Shown: in pieces, positions 14,536 to 44,673 of the stretch
Layout of the letters: each line of letters begins with the position of its first letter
Position numbering within the stretch: position 1 is the stretch's first letter
From: a virus
Reading direction: 5' to 3' (one strand)
IMG/VR virus record: IMGVR_UViG_3300033143_004276
Span: 1 to 46,325 of that record
DNA length: 46,325 nt
Notes under the pieces: model-generated
The model's input: only the letters and a program-made list of their open reading frames with translations
The model's database searches: none
Told to the model about the DNA's origin: nothing
Made by a program: the position numbers and the translations under genes

Positions 14536-15987
14536 TTACTTACCCATGTTCCTATATACACCATTGAAACGTGGTGTGTATACGAAAAGCGCTCCGTAAA
14601 GTACAACTGCAAACTCAAGAGCAGTAGTCACGATAGCAAAATTAATCTTGCTAAGTGGTGCTAATTGCTTGAATCGCATGCACTCTGCGTTAAGGTCAAG
14701 CATAAATGCTTCACCAAGACCTGGTTGTTTTTCGCCAACATCCACATAAGCAGAAAGACCTACCTTGTAGTTTCCAACGAACTCTTCAGATCCAACAGCT
14801 CCACCAGTAGCAGAACGATATACTCTAAAGTATTTTGTTCCAGCAGATGGGGTCGGCATTGTAAGAACTACTGAAGCATCATCACCAGTAGTGGTGGCAG
14901 CAGTAGCTTGACGAGGAGAAGACTCTCCAAAATCATTAACTTCAGTTACTTTATACTGATAAACACCTTGAGCTAATTTACCATCTCCACCAGCAGAACC
15001 GGCAGTTCCGACTGCTGCTGGAAGACCAGGAGCATTAGAATTAACTGCTTTTGCACGAGCGCGAGCACGTGGTCGTAAGAACAAGTTAGGCTTAAGATCC
15101 AAAGTTCCTGCTGTTGTCTGAACCTTAGATACATCGTAACCAACTGTTTGATTAGCGAGACCTGGAGCAGATCGGAATTGTGGATAGAATTGTCTAACGA
15201 ATGAGCTAAGCGCTAGTGGCTCAATGTGAAGCTCAGATGGAGAACCGAAATTCTCTAAAAGAATCACTGATAACTCTTCGATATCATCTTGTGTCATTAC
15301 TGATCCAGCTTGATCACGGATAACTGATTCAAATGAACCGTATCCTTCAAAGTCACCAGAATGCTGTTGAGCATCGTCGTCACCTCTAAGAAGTTGCTGA
15401 AGAAGACCGTTCATAGCAAGAGAATCTGCTGGAAGGTCTGAAGTAGAACCTGATTGTTGCCCTACAGCGTCTGTAAAGTGGCTGTGTGCCCAATACATTT
15501 CTCGCTCAACATTCTTAAGAAGATGCATAGTACCTTCTTTAGCCTGTTGTGCAACAACATCACCAACTGTTGTACGGACAAGAGTCATTTGGTGAGAGAC
15601 TTTACGTCTAGTACCAAAGAACACAATTCTTTGTCCATCACGGATGTAAGTAGAATCTTCTTCTTGAGGAGCTCCACCTTCGCCAATGTAAGGACTAGAA
15701 TCTGAACCGTAACCAGTTAATCGGTTGTACTGCTCAAATAAGTTATATGCTTTGTCGATACTAATCGCAGGCCATAACTTAAGGTTTTTCATATCAAAAG
15801 TGACACTCTTAAGAGTTGTCTCTAGTGACTCTGTTTGGATTACACCACCATAGGTTAGGTCGGTCGGCTTTCCAGCTCCACCATAACCAGCCGTGATAGC
15901 TTTGGTTAAATTTTCAACTTCATCAGGAGTTACGAGACCCTGCTCGATGCCTTGCATGATTGAATTTACTGCTTCGTTAAATGCCAT
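14536..15987 (-). CDS. Major capsid protein
   Basis: 483 residues from ATG at 15987, with AAGGAG ten bases upstream; the in-frame TTG at 15996 is too close to the binding site. A helical N-terminus of about 30 residues ends in KAITAGYGGAGKPTDLTYGG, a likely protease site (see findings). The body shows phage coat features, and residues about 335-420 look like an inserted Ig- or fibronectin-like domain with QGVYQYKVTEVNDFGESS and KYFRVYRSA. The call rests on position after portal, protease and scaffold genes, high length and its own strong terminator, as expected of the most abundant virion protein. Catalytic motifs are absent. Confidence 0.85.
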   Translation of the reverse strand: MAFNEAVNSIMQGIEQGLVTPDEVENLTKAITAGYGGAGKPTDLTYGGVIQTESLETTLKSVTFDMKNLKLWPAISIDKAYNLFEQYNRLTGYGSDSSPYIGEGGAPQEEDSTYIRDGQRIVFFGTRRKVSHQMTLVRTTVGDVVAQQAKEGTMHLLKNVEREMYWAHSHFTDAVGQQSGSTSDLPADSLAMNGLLQQLLRGDDDAQQHSGDFEGYGSFESVIRDQAGSVMTQDDIEELSVILLENFGSPSELHIEPLALSSFVRQFYPQFRSAPGLANQTVGYDVSKVQTTAGTLDLKPNLFLRPRARARAKAVNSNAPGLPAAVGTAGSAGGDGKLAQGVYQYKVTEVNDFGESSPRQATAATTTGDDASVVLTMPTPSAGTKYFRVYRSATGGAVGSEEFVGNYKVGLSAYVDVGEKQPGLGEAFMLDLNAECMRFKQLAPLSKINFAIVTTALEFAVVLYGALFVYTPRFNGVYRNMGK

Positions 15988-16001
15988 TTTAGACAAACTC
16001 C

Positions 16002-17303: not shown

Positions 17304-18566
17304 TTATACCATCATCTGAACTAGGTCTTCAAAAGATAAACTCTTTTTGCATTCTCGGCACTTAACCTGGTTAGCCATGTAAACTTGTTCATGGCCACAG
17401 TCTTTACAGGTTGTGTACTTAAATCCGTCACTTACAGACTCTGATTGAATAACTGAACCACCAGTCATATCCGTAGGGATACCACCGCCGCCGTAACCAG
17501 CAGTTAGAGCTTTCTCGAATTTAACTACGTGGCGATGACTAGGAGATACGAATGATTGATGGTAATTGGCCATCGTTGTCAGTTCACTCTTTAGATTGCT
17601 ATTTTTAGCATTTGCTGCTTTTTCAGCATATTGCCCAGCGTGAGATGTATTCTGTGCATCTGTCATCTTGTGGGCTTCTTGGTCGCCGATTCTCATTTTA
17701 TGCTCTGGATATGGATGCTGAGAACTTAAGGCTTTTTTGAGTTCTGCATAGGATTCGAATAATGTCTTAAAATTATTGAAGCTATTGTCTTCGGTGGCAC
17801 ATTTAGCACTACTGATGATATCGTTAATTTTTTCTATATTTTTTCGTAACTTGTACTGTATAGAATTCTTAATTATGTCGTCTACGTCTTCATAAGGCAT
17901 CTTAATCTCTATGCCTATAGATGATGCTAAATCTTGAATTTTATTGAGATTTTCCATTAATTTTTCAGCAGAAGCATGACGAGTTATGTGGCGGAAAGAT
18001 GGCACGTTGGTCTTTGCTAAGTGCACAACGGATTTGATTAGTTTTTCATCTTCTTCCCAATTTGAGCTTTTCGCTAAACTGGTTGGCTCTACTAGGGTGG
18101 CTTGATTAGCAGGAGTAAAAGTCAGTGCGACTGAATGTATTTTGGTCCTAGCTAGCAAATTGGTATCTGCTATGCCTCTAGCTACAACTCCACCTTCAAC
18201 AGATGCCTTTAGTCTCAAAGGGCAATCCGTCTTATGGATATTCCTTAGTATAGCTGCAGCCGCTTTTGCGTTGGGGTGATCACTATCGTTATATAGTTCT
18301 CCTTGAACGTATATGAAAGGAGATTTTACTTTATTCCAGTAATATGTATGGCGAGGATCTGTACAATCTTCTGCCTTAAGTATCTTTTTAGCACCAGTTA
18401 CTTTTCCAATAGAATTAAAGAACCCTTTGCCGTGGTTGTCGTTTAAACGCCCCCTGCCAGCCTCTAATTCAGATATATCAGCTCCTTCTACACTGAGCAT
18501 TTCTCCCTGTGTATCTCTAAGTTGACTGCCTGCTATCATGTCTATTTCAAGTGTTTTCTTTCCCAT
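17304..18566 (-). CDS. Prohead maturation protease
   Basis: 420 residues. The N-terminal 160 residues look like a herpes/HK97-type prohead protease: NDNHGKGFFNSIGKV with a candidate catalytic His (45), then RLKASVEGGVV with a candidate Ser (122), and HSVALTFTPANQ, matching the usual G-x-S-x-EG and ALT-x-x-PAN pattern. A helical middle follows. The C-terminal 70 residues hold KALTAGYGGGGIPTD (353-367), very like the major capsid N-terminus, and a CxxC zinc ribbon (Cys 387, 390, 403, 406). The ATG at 18566 lies seven bases after a promoter -10, so the mRNA may be almost leaderless. Confidence 0.8.
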   Translation of the reverse strand: MGKKTLEIDMIAGSQLRDTQGEMLSVEGADISELEAGRGRLNDNHGKGFFNSIGKVTGAKKILKAEDCTDPRHTYYWNKVKSPFIYVQGELYNDSDHPNAKAAAAILRNIHKTDCPLRLKASVEGGVVARGIADTNLLARTKIHSVALTFTPANQATLVEPTSLAKSSNWEEDEKLIKSVVHLAKTNVPSFRHITRHASAEKLMENLNKIQDLASSIGIEIKMPYEDVDDIIKNSIQYKLRKNIEKINDIISSAKCATEDNSFNNFKTLFESYAELKKALSSQHPYPEHKMRIGDQEAHKMTDAQNTSHAGQYAEKAANAKNSNLKSELTTMANYHQSFVSPSHRHVVKFEKALTAGYGGGGIPTDMTGGSVIQSESVSDGFKYTTCKDCGHEQVYMANQVKCRECKKSLSFEDLVQMMV

Positions 18567-18573
18567 ATAGACT

Positions 18574-18582
18574 ATTATACTA
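18574..18582 (-). promoter_or_regulatory. Promoter TAGTATAAT abutting the protease start
   Basis: Exact copy of the T(G/A)GTATAAT element. Seven bases separate TATAAT from ATG 18566, so transcription would start at or just before the start codon, leaving no room for a ribosome binding site. Confidence 0.55.
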
Positions 18583-21191: not shown

Positions 21192-21200
21192 ATTATACTA
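21192..21200 (-). promoter_or_regulatory. Promoter TAGTATAAT abutting the HNH start
   Basis: Exact copy of the element, six bases before ATG 21185 and just after the portal stop at 21203. The expected start of transcription coincides with the start codon. Confidence 0.5.
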
Positions 21201-30993: not shown

Positions 30994-33900
30994 TTATTTT
31001 TCCTTTATAATTTCTAAATCTTCAATTGTTATACTAACAGGTGTATTCCATCCAGTTTTTAACTGTCCACGGACATACACAATTGAGTTAATGGGTAAAT
31101 TAAGTGCTTTATCTCGATCCCACCAAACACATTCAGTCGAAGCATAGCCATCTGATAGTTCTATTTTTACCATTTTATACGGTTTGCCTGTTTTTTTAGA
31201 AATTCCTCTCTTAAGAGAGGATCCTTCAAACAACATTACCATTCCAACTGCTTGATCGTGATCCTTATCTACTAACCCCTTCGCAACAGTTAGGTTAGCT
31301 AAAACCGGAATACTCCCATTAGACAATGGGACGCCGCTGCGCCCTGTAATATTAAACTTAGGTACGGCAGTTGTGATTGTTTTTAATAATTTCTTATCCT
31401 TAAGAAGTGTCTTATTAAAACACTTATTGGTTTCTCTCTCCATAAGGAAAATGGACATTGGGTCTACTTTTAATAGCTCTTCTTTGAAGGGCTTACATTT
31501 TCTCTTAGAAACATAATCGCTCATTAGCTTGAGACGTGCTTCATCGTAGTCTAAATCTTTATCCATTAGGCAATCAGCTGCTCTCCCTTTGATAATAGAA
31601 GAGAAGTGACCTATATTTACTTTATTATGTTTCACCCTAGCAACATAATCGTCTAAAGATGAGAATGGGCCCTTTTTAACTAATTCATCCACACATGCGT
31701 CTCCGACTCTCTTAAGCACTGATATTGGCGCTACAATAATCTTATCGTGGATCTCAAAATCTCTACTTGGATTCTTGACAGAAGGTGGATCTACAATGTT
31801 ACCTAGCAGGGTCATATATCCTCTAACCTTATCTTCTTTATCCATATTATTGTTTAACTCAGCTGCCCACCATTCTAATTTATGTTTATTTTTTAAATAC
31901 ATAGTTATGTAACCAGTTTCACCGTAACAACGGGAGTGAGAACGGTTAAAGGAATACCTAGCAAATGCTTGAATCTGATCGCAAACCACTTGGGCTTGCT
32001 CTGGTGTCCATCCTCGCTTAGCGGTATTGATACGGATCCTATCGAAAGCTTCCATCATTACTTCAGCTTTCTTTTTAGCTATAGCGCCACGAACGCGGTC
32101 TGACTCTTCCAGTGTATACCCCGCATAATCTACTAAAAACTTCATGACCTCTTCTTGATACACAAATACACCGTTTGATGTACAAGTCGCAAGATCATCA
32201 TGCAAGTATGATAGCTTCCTTTTGCCATTTCTGACATCCATATAGTACTGTGCAGCAGATACGCCATCCTCTAATGATATTTCATCATTAACAAAAGGTG
32301 CATCTAGTGTTCCAGGCCTACATAGTGCTGTCATTGCAGATAGATGCTCTCGTTGAGAAGGAGCAAATTGTTGTATATATCCTTTAATTAGAGCAGTATT
32401 AAATTGAAAAGAGGAATCTGTCCTCTTATTATAGAAGTCTCTATAGACAGCTTGATCCTCAGGTAGTCTATAGATTAAAGCAGTTCCTTTATCGTCCTCT
32501 TCAAGATAATCAATACCAGTACGCTCTTTAACTAATTTAATACAATCAGATATAGATTGAATTGTTGTTACACCTAAGATGTCAGCTTTCACTAGACCGG
32601 CATCTTCAACCATTGAAGCTGAACATTGTGTTACGTTTACCATTTTACCTAAGAACTTATCATACATCTTCATAGTAGGTATACGCTCTGAAGACAAATC
32701 TACAGTTGATACAACATACGCTGAAGCATGACGACCCCATCCACGCACAAGCCCAACAAGACGGCCTACCATTTCTTCAACTTGAGTAAATTGTTTAAAA
32801 AAGGCAGCCACTTCTGGGACGGTTTCTACTAGTCCAGGTGTATACTCACCCTCTTTATTTGTAAAGCCATAAATAAAATCATATTCATCTATGCCTTGTG
32901 ATGAGTCCGGTATTAGTCTGCACACTGCTTCAACATTTAGATCTTTACGGTTTTTACCATAAAGAGCCCACATAGCATCTTTAATTGCATTCTTTGTCTT
33001 CATCTTTTGGAAAGTACAAATTTGTGCAAAACCTAAACCGTACTTCTCATCTAAGTATTTCAAGATAGGGATTCTATTTCCAAAGTCAACGTCAATATCT
33101 GGAAACGATCCTGCATTAATACGTGCTATAGATAAGAAGCGCTCAAATGGTAGATCTGTTTCGATGGGATCAATATGAATGATTTTTAAATAGTAAGATA
33201 TCAGGCAACCACCGGCAGATCCACGACCGATACCCTGAAGAACACCTTGAGACCTAGCGTGAGTACATATATCTTCATATAAAAGAAAATATGGCAAGAA
33301 ATTCAAAGTACCATTCTGCATGATAACCTTGACTTCTTTTTTAAAACGAGCAACATATTCTGGATCGTCATTCCAACGACCGTGTTGCTTGCATAGCTGT
33401 ATAGTGTACAGTAGGGTCTGCTTATCGTAATCATCAGTTTGTTCTTGTATTGCTTTAGGGATATCTATCTTAGGCATGTGGTAATCATGCTTGTGTTCTA
33501 TTTTTCTAGCTTGCTCAACGATCTCCAAAGTATTATTTATCCAGATCTCAAAAATATCAAGAGTTAATCTATCTCCTAATTGCCCCTTTAAAACCTTATA
33601 CATGTCTTCTCCAAGACGAGCATGATACGATTCAATATAGTACTTACCACTATCATATGAATTTTTCGCGATAACGTCCTGTAAAAGTTTGTCACTCTTT
33701 TTAATAAAATGAGCACCACTTGATGGAATAGCTTTTAGGGCATATTTTTCTACCATATCAAGTAAGAAGATATTATATGCCTTACCTAGATCTCCTTCCG
33801 TGACTAAATCATTCTTCCATATAGCTTGAAATCCTGTTTTAGACGAATAACTGTCTTTAATAGATACAGGAATGAATTCGACATGGAGCTGATCCATAAA

Positions 33901-34968
33901 AGTATCCATATATAGCTGCATTGATTTTACGGCAGCTTCTCTGTTTCCATCTCTAACGTGGTCACCGATAGCACCATAGACGTCACCAGTGCCGAACATG
34001 AGACCTTCTCTATGGGAATCTATATCTTCGATTGTGACAATAGGCTTTATTACACCATCTTCTTCTATTTGATCTTCGTATCCTAAAGATGATAATTTCA
34101 TCAAATTTAAATACCCTAGATTGCTAACAGCCCAAGCATTAAAAGGGTGCAGTTTACCGTCTGATTTGAAAAACATACCTACACCGGGTACAGCTACTGT
34201 GTCGCTTGTACTAATCTTTAGTGCTTCAACGATCGATACAGCTGGACCGTGATCTACTACACTGAATCCAGGTACTCCAGCTTCCTTACACCATGCAGAC
34301 CACTCTTCGACTCTTGGTACAGATTCGACCATACCGTACATAGAATGGACATGAAGTTGAGCAGGTTCAGGAAGATTATAATTGTCTACTGTAATTATAG
34401 GCGCTGGAGCAACCGTTGTTCTCTCTTCTTCACCTAGCAGTTTTGCAACCTCTTTATCCACCTCTATTGTAGCATTGATATCAGAATATGCATCATGGGC
34501 CTTGATTGTTATGCCATAGTGCTTCGCTAGTGTTTCTAATTTATGATTGTCTGTCTTAATCTGCGTCTTTACAGACTTGACTCTTTTATATGTGCAATGG
34601 GTGTGTAGCTCAAACAGGGAAAAGAAATCTTCTGGTCGACCACATTTTGCAAATAATTCAGCTGTAAATCTTTTATCAAAATCTACGTTATATCCAGCGA
34701 TAATAAATTTAGCATCGAATTGCTTCAAGTATTTGACTAATTTTTCTACTAATTGTTCTGGTGTCTGGAATGTCTTCATTCTCTCACGAGTGATACCATG
34801 AATCTTCACGGCTATATCGTCTATCGCATTCCAGTTCTTAGGTTGACAGAATTCATTAAAGAAATCATGCCTCACGCCATTGACGATAGGAACACAAGCT
34901 ACCTGAACAACATCATTCTTATCAGGATAGAGACCTGTTGTTTCTACGTCAATCCACAAAAAATTCAT
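30994..34968 (-). CDS. DNA polymerase III alpha with N-terminal proofreading exonuclease
   Basis: 1324 residues from ATG at 34968, with GGAG eight bases upstream; in-frame starts at 35025 and 34992 have no such site. A DEDDh exonuclease is at the N-terminus: DVETTG at 7-12, GYNVDFDK near 92-99, HDAYSD at 158-163. A PHP domain follows (HVHS 206-209, DHG 239-241); the next PHP acidic residue is replaced by G in PGVGMFF. The family C polymerase core has GRGSAGG (581-587), PDIDVDF (623-629, metal ligands D626 and D628) and the third Asp (796) in VKADILG, then a C-terminal HhH and OB region. This gives a full replicative polymerase like Gram-positive PolC, but arranged as exonuclease-PHP-Pol. Confidence 0.95.
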   Translation of the reverse strand: MNFLWIDVETTGLYPDKNDVVQVACVPIVNGVRHDFFNEFCQPKNWNAIDDIAVKIHGITRERMKTFQTPEQLVEKLVKYLKQFDAKFIIAGYNVDFDKRFTAELFAKCGRPEDFFSLFELHTHCTYKRVKSVKTQIKTDNHKLETLAKHYGITIKAHDAYSDINATIEVDKEVAKLLGEEERTTVAPAPIITVDNYNLPEPAQLHVHSMYGMVESVPRVEEWSAWCKEAGVPGFSVVDHGPAVSIVEALKISTSDTVAVPGVGMFFKSDGKLHPFNAWAVSNLGYLNLMKLSSLGYEDQIEEDGVIKPIVTIEDIDSHREGLMFGTGDVYGAIGDHVRDGNREAAVKSMQLYMDTFMDQLHVEFIPVSIKDSYSSKTGFQAIWKNDLVTEGDLGKAYNIFLLDMVEKYALKAIPSSGAHFIKKSDKLLQDVIAKNSYDSGKYYIESYHARLGEDMYKVLKGQLGDRLTLDIFEIWINNTLEIVEQARKIEHKHDYHMPKIDIPKAIQEQTDDYDKQTLLYTIQLCKQHGRWNDDPEYVARFKKEVKVIMQNGTLNFLPYFLLYEDICTHARSQGVLQGIGRGSAGGCLISYYLKIIHIDPIETDLPFERFLSIARINAGSFPDIDVDFGNRIPILKYLDEKYGLGFAQICTFQKMKTKNAIKDAMWALYGKNRKDLNVEAVCRLIPDSSQGIDEYDFIYGFTNKEGEYTPGLVETVPEVAAFFKQFTQVEEMVGRLVGLVRGWGRHASAYVVSTVDLSSERIPTMKMYDKFLGKMVNVTQCSASMVEDAGLVKADILGVTTIQSISDCIKLVKERTGIDYLEEDDKGTALIYRLPEDQAVYRDFYNKRTDSSFQFNTALIKGYIQQFAPSQREHLSAMTALCRPGTLDAPFVNDEISLEDGVSAAQYYMDVRNGKRKLSYLHDDLATCTSNGVFVYQEEVMKFLVDYAGYTLEESDRVRGAIAKKKAEVMMEAFDRIRINTAKRGWTPEQAQVVCDQIQAFARYSFNRSHSRCYGETGYITMYLKNKHKLEWWAAELNNNMDKEDKVRGYMTLLGNIVDPPSVKNPSRDFEIHDKIIVAPISVLKRVGDACVDELVKKGPFSSLDDYVARVKHNKVNIGHFSSIIKGRAADCLMDKDLDYDEARLKLMSDYVSKRKCKPFKEELLKVDPMSIFLMERETNKCFNKTLLKDKKLLKTITTAVPKFNITGRSGVPLSNGSIPVLANLTVAKGLVDKDHDQAVGMVMLFEGSSLKRGISKKTGKPYKMVKIELSDGYASTECVWWDRDKALNLPINSIVYVRGQLKTGWNTPVSITIEDLEIIKEK

Positions 34969-35001
34969 ACAATAATCTCCATTAAAATCCATTACAGATG
35001 T

Positions 35002-35007
35002 ATTGTA
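35002..35007 (-). promoter_or_regulatory. -10 element TACAAT after terminator
   Basis: Minus-strand TACAAT in TTTGTACAATACATCTG, immediately downstream of the terminator at 35013-35038. Together they make a terminator-promoter junction. A transcript from here would have a 5' leader of about 25 bases before the polymerase ATG at 34968. Confidence 0.5.
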
Positions 35008-35012
35008 CAAAT

Positions 35013-35038
35013 AAAAAAGGCACAACAGTCGTTGTGCC
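35013..35038 (-). terminator. Rho-independent terminator
   Basis: Minus-strand GGCACAAC, a four-base loop GACT and GTTGTGCC (35019-35038), an eight base-pair perfect stem, followed by TTTTTT. Ends the transcript of the small gene at 35064-35396. Confidence 0.95.
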
Positions 35039-35488: not shown

Positions 35489-35785
35489 TTAAACACTTGC
35501 ATTTGGATTTACATCGCCTTCTTGGATCTCTTCAATCTTAGCAAGAAGGTATTGGATCTTAGCCTGTTCATACTTAATGGCGGTTTTATATCCAGATTCT
35601 AGATCTTTTTTAATCTGTGACGCTGCTAGAAGCTGTTCATCTTCTCCCATTTCATCGTTAAGGGCCTTCATTTGCTGCTCTGCCTTCACGATCAATGATG
35701 CAGCTAAATCCTCATTAACTTCATTATTGTCTTCAAGAAATGTCTTACTGAGAATCTTCTTTGCCTTACCTAAATCTAGTGCCAT
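35489..35785 (-). CDS. Small helical protein, unknown
   Basis: 98 residues, nearly all helical (KAKKILSKTFLEDNNEVNEDL, QIKKDLESGYKTAIKYEQAK), ending GDVNPNASV. GAGGAG six bases upstream of ATG 35785. It sits three bases after the ruvC stop, in one operon with it. No motif. Composition suggests a small dimer or coiled coil; no function is proposed. Confidence 0.6.
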   Translation of the reverse strand: MALDLGKAKKILSKTFLEDNNEVNEDLAASLIVKAEQQMKALNDEMGEDEQLLAASQIKKDLESGYKTAIKYEQAKIQYLLAKIEEIQEGDVNPNASV

Positions 35786-35788
35786 GCT

Positions 35789-36429
35789 TTACTCCTCTGG
35801 ATAAGTGAATTGTGCTTTAGATATTGTTTTCATAATTACATCATCTGGTGCTTTCACAGATAATTCTACCTCTGTTAAATTCAAATATAGCCTGCAGAAG
35901 AATACGGCTTGCCCTACAGCATCAACAACATCATATCTAAATTTGATTGGTTTACCTGTCTTCTTAGACAGTGAATGGTTAGGAAACCTGAAGTTATATT
36001 TGTCCCATAAAGCCTGCTGAATCATTAGTTTCTTAGATGGCTCTTTGCCCCATTTTAGTTTCTGTTCTTTAGTGGAGGTCGACCTACCTGCAACGAATTT
36101 TTTCCAGTTACCTATATTTAAAATGGTGTAATCTAACCCCATGCGTCTTGCTTGGATCCATATAGCTGTACGGAAAGCCACATTCAGTGTACCACCAGAT
36201 GCGAACCTTTTTGAGAAGAAGTAATCTTCTAAAGCTACCTGCGTTACGTTGTGATCGTTGATGATTGTTTCGATTTGATCCATTAGATTAATACAGCGGT
36301 CGCCATCGTAATCTGTAATGTCTTGTACTTCTAAAACCCATACTCATAAATATCTGCTTTGGTACCGTCTATCTTTACTAAACAATAACCTGTAGATATT
36401 GCCGGATCAAGTACTAGTGCTACTTCCAT
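35789..36429 (-). pseudogene. ruvC: RuvC-type Holliday junction resolvase, frameshifted
   Basis: The N-terminus is in one frame (36331-36429, 32 residues then TAG): MEVALVLDPAISTGYCLV, holding the first catalytic Asp in D-P-x-x-x-T-G. It has AGGAGG four bases before its ATG. The remainder is in another frame and continues from 35789 to about 36336: LEVQDITDYDGDR, then VALEDYFFSKRFASGG with the ALE acidic residue and DVVDAVGQAVFF with the final Asp pair. The two pieces meet at TTTT on the minus strand (36333-36336). One added T would join them exactly as YGFLEVQD. Either a genuine frameshift mutation, a sequencing error or recoding; see findings. RuvC cleaves Holliday junctions. Confidence 0.85.
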
Positions 36430-36447
36430 AAAACCTCCTATTGAGAG

Positions 36448-36453
36448 GTTATA
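36448..36453 (-). promoter_or_regulatory. Possible -10 element TATAAC before ruvC
   Basis: Minus-strand ATAGTATAACC, one mismatch from the recurring TAGTATAAT, 18 bases before the ATG at 36429 and directly followed by the AGGAGG site. Support is moderate. Confidence 0.4.
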
Positions 36454-36465
36454 CTATGAGACAAA

Positions 36466-36747
36466 CTATGAAAGTTTCCACTGGCCACTTTTACTAAAAC
36501 TGACACCCTCTTTGAGTTTCTTAGCTTCTTTCATGGCTGAATCTTTAACAGCTACATCTTTAAGCTGTTCAGCCATTTTCTTTGGATCCTTCTTGGAAGT
36601 TGCAGCGCCTGCTTTTGGAGCTTCTGGTTGCTTAATGACATCTGGGCCATTTGCAGTGGGTGGTGTAGGTGGCTTTAGTGATGGTGGGACATCTAGAGTT
36701 TTTGCTAGTTCCCTTATTTCTTCAAGTTTTTTTAGTAATTTATCCAT
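36466..36747 (-). CDS. Small proline- and lysine-rich protein ending in GQWKL
   Basis: 93 residues: a helical start (DKLLKKLEEIRELAKTL), a proline-rich middle with PSLKPPTPPTANGPD, a second helix and a C-terminus SFSKSGQWKLS. The last motif matches the GQWSL peptide seen in two head-region genes (6037 and 6440). ATG at 36747 lies six bases after TACAAT and has at most a weak AGG; the message could be nearly leaderless. No enzyme motif. Confidence 0.65.
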   Translation of the reverse strand: MDKLLKKLEEIRELAKTLDVPPSLKPPTPPTANGPDVIKQPEAPKAGAATSKKDPKKMAEQLKDVAVKDSAMKEAKKLKEGVSFSKSGQWKLS

Positions 36748-36920: not shown

Positions 36921-38681
36921 CTATGAGACTATACTAGAAATCCCATTTTTCTTCTCAATTCGTATTGTTTCTGAGAACATTGACTTAGCCTCAGACGCGT
37001 GATCAATAATCCATATCTGACGATCACAAGATAGCTTCTCTAGCAGATCTACAGCTCTTTCACGATTAGATGTATCCAGTCCATCAAAGGGCTCATCTAA
37101 GAAGACAGGGGAGATCGAGAAGCCGAACATAGACTCAACCACATCAATTATCGCAAAATCCACTGATATAGATAGGCATCTAAATTCCCCACCAGAAAGA
37201 CTACCTATAGATACATCTCTACCAGAGATCACTAGTTTATCTGAGAATTTTGCTCTAACATTGCCATCCTGATTCTCTTTAAAGGATTGTAATTTATATG
37301 ATGCATTTGGCCATATCATGGCTACATAATCAGATACTTTCTGATTAAAGACTTCGACGACAGTATCAACAATATAGGCTGGAGCTCCAGTGGGAGAAAG
37401 GATATTTGATATAGTCGATACTAATTCAATCTCTGAATTTAGAGCTAGTAATTTCTTAGATGCCTTACTTAGAATCTTGTCTATCTCAGCTATCTTAGAT
37501 GTAAATAGTTCTTGTTTTTCTAATTTCTCATTTAAAGTAATTAATGTGTTTTGCTGTATTGCTAGTTTGGTTTTTAAATCAGATACACAACTAGTGGCCT
37601 CACTATATTCGGCCTCTGTTTTTTGGATTTTAGCGTTAAGTTTAACACTGAGATCCATTATCTCAGATCTTTTGGCTCTAGTATTACCTGCACCTTTTAT
37701 CGCAACTAGTTTCTGCGATAAAATATCTTTTTTAGCTTTTATCTTTTCTTTATGTTGTTCCTGTAGTTGATCAATTTTTATCATCCCGGAATTGGATGAA
37801 ATAAAACGCTCGCTGCAACTCGGACACTCAATACCGTCCTCGCTAAAATCATGAGATTCTAGTTCAGATATCTCCTTCTGTAATTGACTATGAAGTGAAT
37901 GGTCTATGGCCAACTTATTATCGATAGTATCTAAATTTCTTAGATTGTTATTTATCTTATCTCTAAGGTCTTGAAATTTAGAATAATCAGGTTTCGTGAC
38001 TGTACTCATTTTTTTAAGTTCTTCAGCTATTTTGCTATCAGATAGTGTTTTGATTTGTTCTTTTAAAGTTTTAACATCTACCAGTTCACTAACATAAATA
38101 GATTTCTTAGAGACACAATCATCTATTATCTTTTCTATTTCCACTTTATTGTTTATTAGTGCTTTTATATCAGAATCTAGTTCTTTCTTCTTAATTAAGA
38201 ATTTATTTAGATCCATCAGCTTTAAAATGAAGTCTTTCTTAGACGTATCGTTAACAGACATAAAGCGCTGACCATCGATTTGGGCAGCATACATACATAT
38301 GAGGAACTGATCGTATGACATGCGGATCTTCTTTTCAAACTCATCCTGTGTCATTGTCTTAGGCGTACCGTCGATAGAGAATTCTACTTTCTTAGGCCTA
38401 GATCTCTTAATCTCTATAAGTTCTCCACCAATCTCTATACCGATTTTTACATATCCCTTTTTAGTTCCTCTTCTAACAATTTCAGATTTACTTATCTTTC
38501 TAGGCATATTGTCATAAAGGCCAAATGCAAGAGCATTGGGAATAGCTGTCTTACCTGCACCATTAGCTGAGTCGTCATCGTGATTCCAGCCATCTAATAA
38601 AATAAGGCCAGTGTTACCGAATTCTAGTTTCACGTGGCCTATACTTAATATATTTTCTATTTCAATGTATTTTATTTGCAT
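36921..38681 (-). CDS. SbcC/gp46-type recombination ATPase
   Basis: 586 residues, short for SbcC but usual for phage gp46. Walker A NGAGKT (40-45), a long coiled coil broken by a zinc hook CPSC (286-289), the ABC signature LSGGE (495-499), Walker B FLDEP (527-531) and an H-loop in IIDHASE. With the SbcD-type nuclease at 26523 it forms an SMC-like complex that resects DNA ends for recombination-dependent replication. The binding site before ATG 38681 is weak (GAG), and the gene follows a zinc ribbon gene by two bases. Confidence 0.9.
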   Translation of the reverse strand: MQIKYIEIENILSIGHVKLEFGNTGLILLDGWNHDDDSANGAGKTAIPNALAFGLYDNMPRKISKSEIVRRGTKKGYVKIGIEIGGELIEIKRSRPKKVEFSIDGTPKTMTQDEFEKKIRMSYDQFLICMYAAQIDGQRFMSVNDTSKKDFILKLMDLNKFLIKKKELDSDIKALINNKVEIEKIIDDCVSKKSIYVSELVDVKTLKEQIKTLSDSKIAEELKKMSTVTKPDYSKFQDLRDKINNNLRNLDTIDNKLAIDHSLHSQLQKEISELESHDFSEDGIECPSCSERFISSNSGMIKIDQLQEQHKEKIKAKKDILSQKLVAIKGAGNTRAKRSEIMDLSVKLNAKIQKTEAEYSEATSCVSDLKTKLAIQQNTLITLNEKLEKQELFTSKIAEIDKILSKASKKLLALNSEIELVSTISNILSPTGAPAYIVDTVVEVFNQKVSDYVAMIWPNASYKLQSFKENQDGNVRAKFSDKLVISGRDVSIGSLSGGEFRCLSISVDFAIIDVVESMFGFSISPVFLDEPFDGLDTSNRERAVDLLEKLSCDRQIWIIDHASEAKSMFSETIRIEKKNGISSIVS

Positions 38682-39055: not shown

Positions 39056-39795
39056 TACCAGCTAATTCCTATACCGATCCTAGCTTCTGGCTCTTCCATG
39101 TTTACATCTGCTGAAAAACCACCACCCACGAATACTGGTCCCCAAAGCGGATAAGAAAAATGAGTGTATATCTTATCATCTGTAGAATAACCAGCTTCAG
39201 TTCTTAGTTTTTTTTCGTTAATTTTTACAATTTTTTCTTTTTCTACTTCTTTTTCAATATAGCGAATTTCTTCATCTTTCTCAAGAAGCTTCTTCTCATA
39301 AGTCTCTTTAATTTCTAATACTCGAGTCTTGTGTATTTGCTTCCATTTTGATTCTATAGATTTGACCTTACGATCAAACTCTTGACGAACTTCAGTTATG
39401 ACAGAAGTAATTTCTTCAGAACTTGACTCTTCATATTCTTTCTCAATAATCGTTCCATCGGGTTTAACAATTCGGAACTTTTTACGCTTAGCATGTCGTT
39501 TAAGAGAACTGTTCTCGGTGCGCAATGATTCAATTTTAATATTAACAGTTTCTTTGTAATCCTTGAGGGAAGCCTCGCTTCGCTGTAAAGCAGTCTTGTC
39601 CTCTCGAGTTTTGCTCTGTTGTTCATCGATTGTCCTTTCATGACTCTTAACTGTCTCTTCGAGAGTGTGTATTTTTTCCCGAAATTCAGTAGTCTTAGAT
39701 GGATAAAAAATCACACCAATACTAGCACCGATTACGAATGCTAGCATACACTGTACCCATTTATTCTTTAAGAATTGTAATAATTGTATCCCCAT
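39055..39795 (-). CDS. Membrane-anchored coiled-coil protein
   Basis: 246 residues. One hydrophobic segment near the N-terminus (about 13-31, MLAFVIGASIGVIF), followed by a long charged coiled coil (about 35-200) with KSHERTIDEQQSK, and a C-terminal beta-like part (YPLWGPVFVGGGFSADV, RIGIGISW). A single N-terminal anchor and a periplasmic coiled coil resemble i-spanins, but the length and C-terminal segment are not typical. It lies directly downstream of the GroEL gene, with overlapping stop and start. GGAGG four bases before the ATG at 39795. A lysis role is possible, not shown. Confidence 0.65.
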   Translation of the reverse strand: MGIQLLQFLKNKWVQCMLAFVIGASIGVIFYPSKTTEFREKIHTLEETVKSHERTIDEQQSKTREDKTALQRSEASLKDYKETVNIKIESLRTENSSLKRHAKRKKFRIVKPDGTIIEKEYEESSSEEITSVITEVRQEFDRKVKSIESKWKQIHKTRVLEIKETYEKKLLEKDEEIRYIEKEVEKEKIVKINEKKLRTEAGYSTDDKIYTHFSYPLWGPVFVGGGFSADVNMEEPEARIGIGISW

Positions 39796-41501
39796 TATTC
39801 CTCCGCAGTGCTCATCATATTACTGAAAGCCTGATTAGCTAGATCCATTTGCATTTCTAAGTTGCTATCACGAGGCACCACTACGATTCCCCCTAATGTA
39901 GTCAAGAGTGTGGCAACAGATAGTGCGTTGCCGATACTTACTCGTATTACTTTAGCCGGTTCAATTATTCCGGCAGCGATTGGTTCTACTATTTCATGAT
40001 TATTAGCATCAAAGATAAGCTCAGGAATAAGTGTATCTACTGCTTCTACTTGTTTTTTTATAGACAGATAGATTTCATCTGGATTCTCTCCGCAGTTCGC
40101 CATCAATAAATTAAATGGAGATCTTAATGCTTCTATCAAAATATCCCAAGATGCTTTCTTTTTATCAGATATAGCTAGTTCTTTAGCTAGACGTAAATGC
40201 ATACTAGCTCCACCGGGAACAATGCCTTCTGCTATAGCAGACCGTACTGCCTCTACCGCATCTTCTACACGGCCTTTCTTTTCTCTAATCTCTAAGTCAG
40301 AATTACCACCAACGATAATAGTTGCAACACCGCCTGTTAGCTTAGCCATTGCTGCTCTTATGAAAGATTTATCCATTTCACTAAAAGCAGCCTTCTCAAT
40401 AGATCTTAATTCTACAAGGCGCTCTTCTACTTCGCCAGGATTAGGATCGCACATGATAAATGTCTCGTACATGTTAACTGTAGCAGTGACAAAGTTCCCT
40501 AAATGCTCTTTTGACATATTATCTATATTAGATGGGTCATAAATCATTCCACCAGTGTATGCGGCCATGTCGTTCAAGAACTCAGATGCACCATTTGGTA
40601 GACCAGATCTAGGTGTTTTAACAGGAACAATCGTTAATCCTGCTTTTGTAGATTTTGCAAATTTCTCTAACACTGAATCAGCAAATGAGTGTGCTAAGAC
40701 CAGAATAGGTGTACCATCTGTATATCCTTGGTTATCTGCAATGCAGCTTTGAATTGCACCAGGTAATTTTAAATCATTAACTGCACCATCATATAAGATG
40801 ATGAAACCCGCATCCATTTTTACTTGTTGTCCGGCCTTATCATTGATGAAAGCTGGACCTATTTGACCAATATCTTTAAGACCAGTAGTGACTATATATC
40901 CGTCTACTGTTTCGACCTTAGTGATAGAATCTCTGCCTTCATTTATTAGGACAGTACCGTCGTCTCCTGCTGCTAATACTGCTTCAACTACGATTTCTGC
41001 AGTAAATAAATCACCGTTAGCAGAAATAGTAGCAACATTCTTCAATTGATCTTCTGTGTCAACTGGAATCGCTGCTGATTTTAAGAATGGTGTGATTACT
41101 GATTCATACGCATAGTTTAATTCAGTAATCATCTTCTGTGGATTATATTTGGGATTGCTTTCAAGAAAAACCTGTCCTTTATTAATCAATTCACTAGCTA
41201 ACACAATAGCTGTAGTTGTTCCGTCACCAGCTTGCTTAGCAGTATTGATACAGATCTCTTTAGCAGCATCAACAACAATATTAGCTTCTGCATTCGCAAG
41301 ACCTAAGGACTTTGCCACTGTGACACCATCTTTTGTAGCCAGTGGAGCTAATCCTTCTCTTTCTATTAAGACTGGATTTCCACCAGGACCAAGAGTGCGA
41401 CCAACAATTTCAGCCATTACCCCAATGGTCTCAGAAACTGTTTTACGAAGATGATCCTTATCGGATAAAATCGCCTTTGCTTTACTTTTAGTGTAGATCA
41501 T
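39795..41501 (-). CDS. groEL: GroEL-like chaperonin
   Basis: 568 residues, close to bacterial GroEL. TLGPGGNPVLIE (36-47) and GDGTTTA (92-98) are nucleotide-site motifs; RVEDAVEAVRSAIAEGIVPGG matches the conserved ATPase segment. The C-terminus lacks the GGM repeats seen in E. coli GroEL. It folds proteins in an ATP-driven ring; several phages carry such genes to fold coat or polymerase proteins. No GroES-like gene of about 95 residues is recognised in the window, so it may use the host cofactor or work alone. The start overlaps the preceding methyltransferase stop. Confidence 0.95.
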   Translation of the reverse strand: MIYTKSKAKAILSDKDHLRKTVSETIGVMAEIVGRTLGPGGNPVLIEREGLAPLATKDGVTVAKSLGLANAEANIVVDAAKEICINTAKQAGDGTTTAIVLASELINKGQVFLESNPKYNPQKMITELNYAYESVITPFLKSAAIPVDTEDQLKNVATISANGDLFTAEIVVEAVLAAGDDGTVLINEGRDSITKVETVDGYIVTTGLKDIGQIGPAFINDKAGQQVKMDAGFIILYDGAVNDLKLPGAIQSCIADNQGYTDGTPILVLAHSFADSVLEKFAKSTKAGLTIVPVKTPRSGLPNGASEFLNDMAAYTGGMIYDPSNIDNMSKEHLGNFVTATVNMYETFIMCDPNPGEVEERLVELRSIEKAAFSEMDKSFIRAAMAKLTGGVATIIVGGNSDLEIREKKGRVEDAVEAVRSAIAEGIVPGGASMHLRLAKELAISDKKKASWDILIEALRSPFNLLMANCGENPDEIYLSIKKQVEAVDTLIPELIFDANNHEIVEPIAAGIIEPAKVIRVSIGNALSVATLLTTLGGIVVVPRDSNLEMQMDLANQAFSNMMSTAEE

Positions 41502-42205: not shown

Positions 42206-42250
42206 CATTTCCTTGTTATACTTACTTTATCAACTGACCTTCTAACTCTA

Positions 42251-43048: not shown

Positions 43049-43122
43049 TGGCACAAGATGAAGGAATCGAACCATCAGTTCCGGGGTTGGAAGCCGGCGT
43101 GTTACCACTACACTAATCTTGC
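43049..43122 (-). tRNA. tRNA-Trp (CCA), alternative Gly (UCC)
   Basis: 74 bases with encoded CCA. Acceptor GCAAGAT/ATCTTGT, D-arm GTGT/ACAC, T-loop TTCGATT. A strict seven-base anticodon loop gives TTCCAAC, anticodon CCA (Trp), with discriminator G; the stem closing pair is C-C. The alternative reading UCC has only two paired stem bases. A UCC tRNA exists separately at 44102. Confidence 0.8.
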
Positions 43123-43196
43123 TGGGGCACCTAGAAGGAATCGAACCATCATCCCCTGATTACAAAACAGGTATTCTGCCATTGAACTATAGGTGC
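43123..43196 (-). tRNA. tRNA-Thr (UGU)
   Basis: 74 bases, directly abutting the previous tRNA. Acceptor GCACCTA/TAGGTGC, anticodon loop TTTGTAA giving UGU, encoded CCA. Stem closing pair T-T is unpaired. Its T-arm, GATGGTTCGATTCCTTC, is identical to that of the neighbour at 43049, including a T-T mismatch, suggesting duplication or conversion. Confidence 0.85.
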
Positions 43197-43204
43197 ATAA
43201 TCTG

Positions 43205-43280
43205 TGGTACTCCGAGATGGATTCGAACCATCGACATCTTGCTTATAAGACAAGCGCTCTCACCGCTGAGCTACCGGAGT
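43205..43280 (-). tRNA. tRNA-Ile (UAU)
   Basis: 76 bases, well formed: acceptor ACTCCGG/TCGGAGT, anticodon loop CTTATAA giving UAU for AUA codons, T-arm GATGG/CCATC, A73 and encoded CCA. Most bacteria read AUA with a modified CAU anticodon, so UAU is unusual. Confidence 0.9.
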
Positions 43281-43355
43281 TGGTAGGTCTACCAGGATTC
43301 GAACCTGGAATGCTACTTTATCAGAGTAGAGTGATCACCATTTCACTATAGACCT
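43281..43355 (-). tRNA. tRNA-Ile (GAU)
   Basis: 75 bases, no gap to the neighbour. Acceptor AGGTCTA/TAGACCT, anticodon loop CTGATAA giving GAU, T-loop TTCGAAT, A73, encoded CCA. Together with the UAU tRNA it covers all three Ile codons. Confidence 0.95.
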
Positions 43356-43431
43356 TGGTCAGGAACCCGGGAGTCGAACCCGGAATCTCAGTCTTCCAAA
43401 GACCGCGGGTTACCATCAACCCCTGTTCCTG
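43356..43431 (-). tRNA. tRNA-Pro (UGG)
   Basis: 76 bases, no gap to the previous gene. Acceptor CAGGAAC/GTTCCTG, anticodon loop TTTGGAA giving UGG, T-arm CCGGG/CCCGG, A73, encoded CCA. Confidence 0.95.
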
Positions 43432-43433
43432 TC

Positions 43434-43507
43434 TGGTGGAATGTGAAGATTCGATACTCCATCTCCTGGTGGATCAAGACCAGTGCTCTAACTTGAGCTA
43501 ACATTCC
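43434..43507 (-). tRNA. Degenerate tRNA-like gene with eight-base anticodon loop
   Basis: 74 bases with acceptor GGAATGT/ACATTCC, A73 and encoded CCA. The anticodon stem CTGGT/ACCAG encloses CTTGATCC, eight bases, so the anticodon could be UGA or GAU. The D-loop (AAGTTA) lacks the usual GG and the T-loop is TATCGAAT, eight bases. Possibly defective or with altered decoding. Confidence 0.65.
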
Positions 43508-43508
43508 T

Positions 43509-43584
43509 TGGTAGTTCCGGAGAGATTCGAACTCTCACTGTACGCGTTCTAAGCGCGATGCCTCTGCCGTTGGGCTACGGAACC
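43509..43584 (-). tRNA. tRNA with UAG anticodon (Leu codon CUA), class I
   Basis: 76 bases. Acceptor GGTTCCG/CGGAACT, anticodon loop CTTAGAA giving UAG, T-arm GAGAG/CTCTC, A73, encoded CCA. Bacterial leucine tRNAs have a long variable arm; this one has only five bases there, so leucine charging is uncertain. Confidence 0.85.
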
Positions 43585-43591
43585 ATACGTA

Positions 43592-44083
43592 TTAATAAGT
43601 AAAACCAAATTCTTTTAATAAACTTTGCAAAGCCTTTGTTTTAGGTTTAGGCTGTACAGGTTTCTTTAACAACTTCATACCAGCCTCAGCCGGTGTTCTA
43701 TCGTCTTTTTTGTTATTACACTTACAACATGCCGTAACGATATTATCCCAAGATGATTTACCACCTCGTGAGCTCGGGAAAACGTGATCCATCGTTGCGT
43801 CTTTCCCTGTAACATGCTTACTACAATATTGACAAGTATTCTTATCCCTCGTTAAAATATTTCTTCTACTATATCGAACAACTGCTGCATCTTTTGCGAT
43901 CTTTACGTATTTGCACAACCTAATGATCTTTGGCATCTCAAACGCCTCATATGCAGATCTAACCATCTTATCTGCGTATGTTGATACAACCTCTGCCTTT
44001 TCCTTCATGACCATACAAACGGCGTCTTTCCAATCTACCATCTGTATGGGTTCATAACTCGCATTTAAAACTAGTGTCCTCAT
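43592..44083 (-). CDS. HNH endonuclease within the tRNA array
   Basis: 163 residues from ATG at 44083, with AGGA six bases upstream; longer starts lie inside the neighbouring tRNA-Gly. The core reads CQYCSKHVTG, then DHVFPSSRGGKSSWDNIV and CKCNNKKDDRTPAEAGM, a well-formed HNH with a CxxC pair in the zinc site. It lies between tRNA genes at 43584 and 44102, as for phage homing endonucleases. The N-terminal RTLVLNASYEPIQ segment is common among phage HNH proteins of this family. Confidence 0.9.
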   Translation of the reverse strand: MRTLVLNASYEPIQMVDWKDAVCMVMKEKAEVVSTYADKMVRSAYEAFEMPKIIRLCKYVKIAKDAAVVRYSRRNILTRDKNTCQYCSKHVTGKDATMDHVFPSSRGGKSSWDNIVTACCKCNNKKDDRTPAEAGMKLLKKPVQPKPKTKALQSLLKEFGFTY

Positions 44084-44101
44084 TCTTGATCCTTTTTCTT
44101 G

Positions 44102-44176
44102 TGGACCCGGTGGCGAGACTTGAACTCGCTTTTCAAGGGTGGAAGCCTTGCACATCACCATATATGCTTCACCGGG
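44102..44176 (-). tRNA. tRNA-Gly (UCC)
   Basis: 75 bases. Acceptor CCCGGTG/CACCGGG, anticodon stem CAAGG/CCTTG with loop CTTCCAC giving UCC, T-arm GCGAG/CTCGC, U73 (a bacterial glycine identity base) and encoded CCA. Confidence 0.95.
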
Positions 44177-44217
44177 ACATTATTACCTAGTTCTATTATA
44201 ACCTCGTTAAGGTTATT

Positions 44218-44297
44218 TGGCGGAGTATATGGGATTCGAACCCATCTGAACGCTTCCCGTGACAGGGGAATGACCACACCTAGCAGTCCCATACTCC
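44218..44297 (-). tRNA. tRNA-Asp (GUC)
   Basis: 80 bases. Acceptor GGAGTAT/ATACTCC, anticodon stem TTCCC/GGGAA with loop CTGTCAC giving GUC, T-arm ATGGG/CCCAT, discriminator G (Asp identity) and encoded CCA. The variable loop has eight bases, longer than usual. Confidence 0.9.
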
Positions 44298-44307
44298 AAG
44301 TAAATAC

Positions 44308-44583
44308 TTAAACTCTTATATTAACTTTTCCCATGGTTACTTCTAAATCATCTACTGCAATATCAGGAACGAATGAACCTTTGACTGCAATTTCAGCCTC
44401 TAATCCTAATTTCTCTGACCAACGCTTTGCGTAATCAAATCCTCCTCCAGACCAAATAACCATCTTCCACCCTAGGTTCTCAAACATTCTAAACATCTCG
44501 ATGACATCGTACCTAGGTGTATCTTCTCTTTCTCCAACTTGATGAATGAGTGTTCCATCAACATCAAAAGCTATAACTTGCAT
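44308..44583 (-). CDS. HAD-superfamily phosphatase, small
   Basis: 91 residues from ATG at 44583, with GGAG six bases upstream; the ORF extends further but overlaps the tRNA-Ala. Motif 1 FDVDGTL (6-12) with the nucleophile and acid pair, then VIWSGG (motif 2), a lysine region with LEAEIAVKGSF, and PDIAVDDLE as the C-terminal acidic motif. Such mini-HADs, lacking a cap, dephosphorylate small molecules or RNA ends. It sits among tRNA genes; a role in tRNA or RNA end repair is conceivable but only inferred. Confidence 0.85.
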   Translation of the reverse strand: MQVIAFDVDGTLIHQVGEREDTPRYDVIEMFRMFENLGWKMVIWSGGGFDYAKRWSEKLGLEAEIAVKGSFVPDIAVDDLEVTMGKVNIRV

Positions 44584-44598
44584 AATAATCTCCAAAAT

Positions 44599-44673
44599 TG
44601 GTGGAACCACTGAGAATCGAACTCAGGTCTTCTGCTTGCAAAACAGGTGTGTTACCATTATCACCATGGCCCC
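44599..44673 (-). tRNA. tRNA-Ala (UGC)
   Basis: 75 bases. Acceptor GGGGCCA/TGGTTCC contains the G3-U70 wobble that marks alanine tRNAs. Loop TTTGCAA gives UGC; T-arm CTGAG/CTCAG; encoded CCA. A second G-U lies next to it. Confidence 0.95.

Follow-up and report, generated by a model that had tools for sequence, protein, structure and literature searches.

The window analysed here, the whole 46,325 bases of IMG/VR record IMGVR_UViG_3300033143_004276, is a genome fragment of an uncultured bacterial virus in which a ruvC gene is written in two reading frames. This raises the question whether the break is a programmed site at which the full enzyme is made, a division into two working pieces, a mutation in the sampled phage, or an error in the assembled sequence.

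Two halves of a RuvC resolvase gene

On the minus strand, the open reading frame at 36331-36429 begins with an ATG preceded by AGGAGG a few nucleotides upstream, and encodes 32 residues, MEVALVLDPAISTGYCLVKIDGTKADIYEYGF, including the first catalytic Asp within LDPAISTG, before it ends at TAG. One base back, in the -1 frame, LEVQDITDYDGDRC... continues from 36334 down to a stop codon at 35789-35791, giving a C-terminal piece (35789-36334) of 181 codons plus the stop codon, with no internal stops. The first-pass annotation had described a ruvC gene split by a single one-base frame break, a 32-residue N-terminal frame with an AGGAGG start and a TAG stop, and a second frame carrying on with LEVQD and the remaining acidic motifs, and this reading holds to the base.

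Both halves align side by side to the intact relatives, with no gap at the join. The N-terminal piece is 45-61% identical to these relatives (E 1.8e-8 to 2e-3), and a profile of the relatives' RuvC proteins matches the two halves separately, at 6.0e-80 and 3.9e-8, thus the match of both halves is not a matter of chance. At the join the relatives have either Ile or Val, and the lost base can therefore not be named and may lie outside the T run. Adding one T, as had been proposed, is a possible repair but not a unique solution, and the idea that the missing base must belong to the homopolymer is unsupported.

On the basis of Pfam, PHROGs and a structure predicted for one intact relative, the gene is a putative phage RuvC-family Holliday-junction resolvase gene, in line with the original family assignment. 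The C-terminal part scored 1.7e-4 and 21.9 bits against Pfam RuvC, slightly below the 22.2-bit cut-off, and 22.7 bits in a genome search, whereas intact relatives were above the cut-off (2e-7 and 1.6e-8); against phrog_159, a RuvC-like resolvase family, it reached 5.3e-11. The model of the intact relative L002 (pLDDT 87.5) shows the RNase H-like RuvC fold, and its top 12 matches in a PDB fold search were all RuvC, the best being bacterial RuvC proteins with E-values of 1.9e-9 to 3e-7. Among these, the E. coli (1hjr), Deinococcus (7xhj) and Thermus (4ep4) proteins matched at about 1e-8 to 2e-9, although they share only 15-18% identity with the phage protein, and the solved chains have 147-166 residues compared to ~211 for the phage protein. 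When the PDB chains were searched by sequence with the profile of the relatives' RuvC proteins none was found, and the likeness appears by fold only.

D7, E66, D165 and D168 are invariant among seven relatives and correspond to the E. coli RuvC tetrad D7, E66, D138 and D141. The window has all four, divided over two frames: D7 in the N-terminal piece, and the equivalents of E66, D165 and D168 (L002 numbering) in the C-terminal piece. In RuvC of Lactococcus phage bIL67 the tetrad is D8, E71, D145 and D149 (PMC3864405). This protein (PDB 4ktw) shares the RuvC fold with the L002 model (E 1.1e-5), as well as the D, E, D, D tetrad, but its sequence is very distant, and the window gene differs from it in its broken frame and in its neighbours, SbcC and a C-family polymerase. 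The intact homologues are probably active enzymes.

The break falls between L002 residues 31 and 32, within the third strand, and parts D7 from the other three acids. In the window the gene is not in one open frame (split at 36331-36343), whereas in 12 of 12 related viral records (the ten IMG/VR relatives L002-L011, plus L047 and L056) ruvC runs in a single frame across the join. The ruvC gene of the window is a broken or mis-sequenced member of the RuvC family and not an intact one.

As written, the first piece would supply a single catalytic acid out of four. In the second, ATG 36283 is the first common start codon, and its predicted product would be without the first Asp and the first sheet strands. 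With the acids divided and the second product truncated, an active enzyme is not expected from the pieces. That they are made separately as a split enzyme, or that the C-terminal piece serves alone as a junction binder, is very improbable: ATG 36283 could start a 164-aa product, but no Shine-Dalgarno sequence was seen ahead of it and, judged from the L002 model, this is the product that would miss the first part of the active site and of the sheet.

Origin of the frame break

The exact alignment of the halves, the strong ribosome site and the intact catalytic residues would also suit programmed -1 frameshifting or transcriptional slippage that yields the full enzyme. The -1 frame is not open until after a TGA, which leaves an overlap of 13 nt with three sense codons (36331-36343, minus strand) as the sole stretch allowing a -1 shift, and in which no tandem slip is possible. 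This overlap contains no slippery heptamer, since the codons TAT GGG TTT TAG permit no X_XXY_YYZ slip, and the original remark that a classic -1 site is missing was justified. At TTT-TAG a +1 slip would be easy, but it ends in the third frame, which is the wrong one. The RNA downstream, folded without pseudoknots, is predicted to be less stable than the mean of shuffled sequences (z = +1.3), and a run of four T would be too short for transcriptional slippage. The short overlap, the missing slippery heptamer, the lack of notable downstream structure and the short T run make recoding very unlikely, and since the split is not conserved in relatives, next to nothing is left of this reading; we consider it extremely improbable. 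Programmed frameshifting and transcriptional slippage were rejected on these grounds, and stop readthrough was rejected as well because it would leave the frame unchanged.

Whether relatives share the split was a check that the first-pass annotation had proposed. With all 12 related records intact, the split is private to the contig of the window, where it should be considered that none of the relatives compared is closer than 65% identity in ruvC, and that the nearest relative overall has no ruvC. A near-identical second viral record that could be used to check the base was sought but none was found, and searches of cellular genomes and of named phages gave zero relatives and zero matches, respectively.

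The broken gene shows no sign of age. In protein branch length, RuvC of the window (0.43) is comparable to the intact proteins of L002 (0.50) and L004 (0.57). The excess of third-position differences in the C-terminal part is the same as between pairs of intact genes; synonymous sites are saturated, and therefore only this excess is readable. An old pseudogene, which the first-pass annotation had also argued against, can be ruled out in view of the 181 stop-free codons, the retained active-site residues and the ordinary rate of evolution. With the C-terminal part stop-free, the catalytic acids retained and evolution no faster than in the homologues, the indel is either recent or an artefact.

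Because no relative shares the break, its likeliest origin is a mistake in the sequence or a mutation of recent date, rather than a new mode of reading a gene. We are confident that the frame was broken by a one-base indel that is private to this contig and unprogrammed, and that very probably arose either as an error in the assembled consensus, which would be slightly likelier, or as a null mutation that the sampled phage acquired very recently. A consensus error, with the real ruvC of the phage intact, would account for a break private to the contig, an undecayed C-terminal part, and intact genes in all relatives that have ruvC; the first-pass annotation was right to make a sequence error a main suspicion. 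However, such an error would be isolated, and the lost base need not fall in the T run. No other real gene was found to be split over about 34 kb compared with relatives, and about 33 kb compared with the closest relative; the leftover frame changes were antisense shadow ORFs, the repeated segment of a capsid protein, and a match to an HNH gene in which the break belongs to the relative. Wholesale indel errors in the contig are thereby excluded, and to a single isolated error we give about an even chance.

Gene neighbourhood of ruvC

The ruvC gene lies on the minus strand in a replication and recombination block. Ahead of it, at 36435-36455, are a promoter-like AGTATAAC and the AGGAGG ribosome site, and relatives also retain the TATAA motif. 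The upstream neighbour (36466-36747, minus strand) encodes a 93-aa protein with a C-terminal GQWKL and is conserved on that side, and the downstream neighbour (35489-35785, minus strand) encodes a 98-aa protein that is conserved on the other side and is 88% identical in the closest relative. Further out are genes for an SbcC-like recombination nuclease subunit (36921-38681, minus strand; phrog_77, 3e-75) and for a C-family DNA polymerase with an N-terminal exonuclease (30994-35025, minus strand; phrog_405, 1.3e-177, and phrog_192, 7.6e-38).

The promoter-like motif AGTATAAY occurs 11 times in the window versus 5.6 expected, among other places at 36448-36455, 21192-21199, 18574-18581 and 42215-42222 (minus strand), and several of the copies are right ahead of start codons. 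In L006, L007, L010, L011 and other relatives it is located only about 5-8 nt ahead of the ruvC ATG, from which a nearly leaderless ruvC mRNA would result. Several unlike small proteins share a GQWSL/GQWKL motif, in many cases close to their C-terminal end (6432, 6775 and 36486, minus strand), and the motif is also present in relatives L013, L015, L043, L044, L138 and L139; it did not occur in any of 20 codon shuffles of the window.

Elsewhere, the product of the head protease gene (17304-18566, minus strand) contains in its C-terminal part a repeat of an N-terminal segment (TAGYGG..PTD...) of the major capsid protein (14536-15996, minus strand), in relatives too, and this repeat is possibly a copy of the cleavage site. 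Nine tRNA genes are located at 43049-44673 (minus strand) with an HNH gene among them, the longest open reading frame of which overlaps tRNA-Gly (44102-44176), so that the gene probably starts at a more internal position. The window also encodes a GroEL chaperonin (39795-41501, minus strand; phrog_5725, 8.7e-97), with homologues in relatives.

A slot shared by RuvC and an HNH nuclease

Judged by the flanking proteins, L030 is the closest relative, and it lacks ruvC. It is 75% identical to the window in SbcC, 58% in the 93-aa protein, 88% in the 98-aa protein, 75% in a 110-aa protein and 73% in the polymerase, and exactly in the place of ruvC it has a gene for a 138-139-aa HNH nuclease that is unrelated to RuvC. 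This gene has a similar promoter-like motif ahead of it, and its junction to the 98-aa gene is nearly the same as that in the window. The slot spans 35786-36465 in the window, 1726-2145 in L030 and 2047-2457 in L035, and is found in other records as well. Among the window and 21 records, RuvC without a slot HNH gene occurs in the window and eight others, the HNH family without RuvC in 12, and neither in one, the distant L045; the two were never found together. The only match of the window to the HNH profile is weak and outside the slot (2.9e-4), as is one in G005. A wider search yielded 26 records with an HNH gene adjoining the 98-aa gene, none of which had ruvC within the stretch read.

The RuvC carriers do not form one clade in the tree of flanking proteins (p-AU 3e-7), whose starred branches require a minimum of three changes at the slot. 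The window pairs with L030 as its fully supported sister, although the two differ at this position. These comparisons mark ruvC as a module that is exchanged within this group of phages, something that the first-pass annotation had not noticed. The slot fits the non-orthologous displacement of resolvases that is known from phages, and would be a local instance of it. In jumbo phages, the distribution of RuvC is nearly complementary to that of the unrelated endonuclease VII or RusA (PMC7824862). Here too an unrelated nuclease is complementary to RuvC; in contrast to the jumbo phages, closely related records make the exchange at a single fixed position, and RuvC alternates with a plain HNH family that is not clearly endonuclease VII and is only a putative resolvase. 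The best PHROGs of this family are phrog_1985 and phrog_3106, both plain HNH, and an assignment as endonuclease VII was dropped since there was also no significant PDB fold match. In other phages, members are likewise found near SbcD, exonuclease or polymerase genes. In L081, a distant record, such an HNH gene is adjoined by one that resembles endonuclease VII, which counts against junction resolution by the HNH protein and argues that it may not always be the sole resolvase. That the slot HNH family is a junction resolver replacing RuvC at a fixed exchange slot, and that the frameshift caught RuvC in the middle of being lost, is conceivable but on balance unlikely.

An exchangeable slot would also suit a genuine recent loss of RuvC, tolerated because another nuclease, of the phage or of the host, resolves junctions. 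The window encodes an HNH protein at 1211-1717 with an endonuclease VII-type match (phrog_1035, 1.9e-27) and another at 43595-44086, and since it is only a fragment, while related records reach about 166 kb, more nucleases may lie beyond it. However, the HNH genes of the window are not members of the RuvC-replacing family, to which their best match reaches only 2.9e-4, and relatives without RuvC have the slot refilled and not left broken, which suggests that a resolvase function is needed. We consider recent loss a plausible explanation, at somewhat less than an even chance.

As a candidate for recoding the locus is ordinary; the frameshift matters little in itself and should not be annotated as recoding, and the modest interest that is left is in the exchange slot. 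A single slot in the replication and recombination block that holds either RuvC or the HNH nuclease, and never both in these records, leads one to predict branched-DNA cleavage by the HNH family, and it offers naturally matched backgrounds in which RuvC and HNH may be compared.
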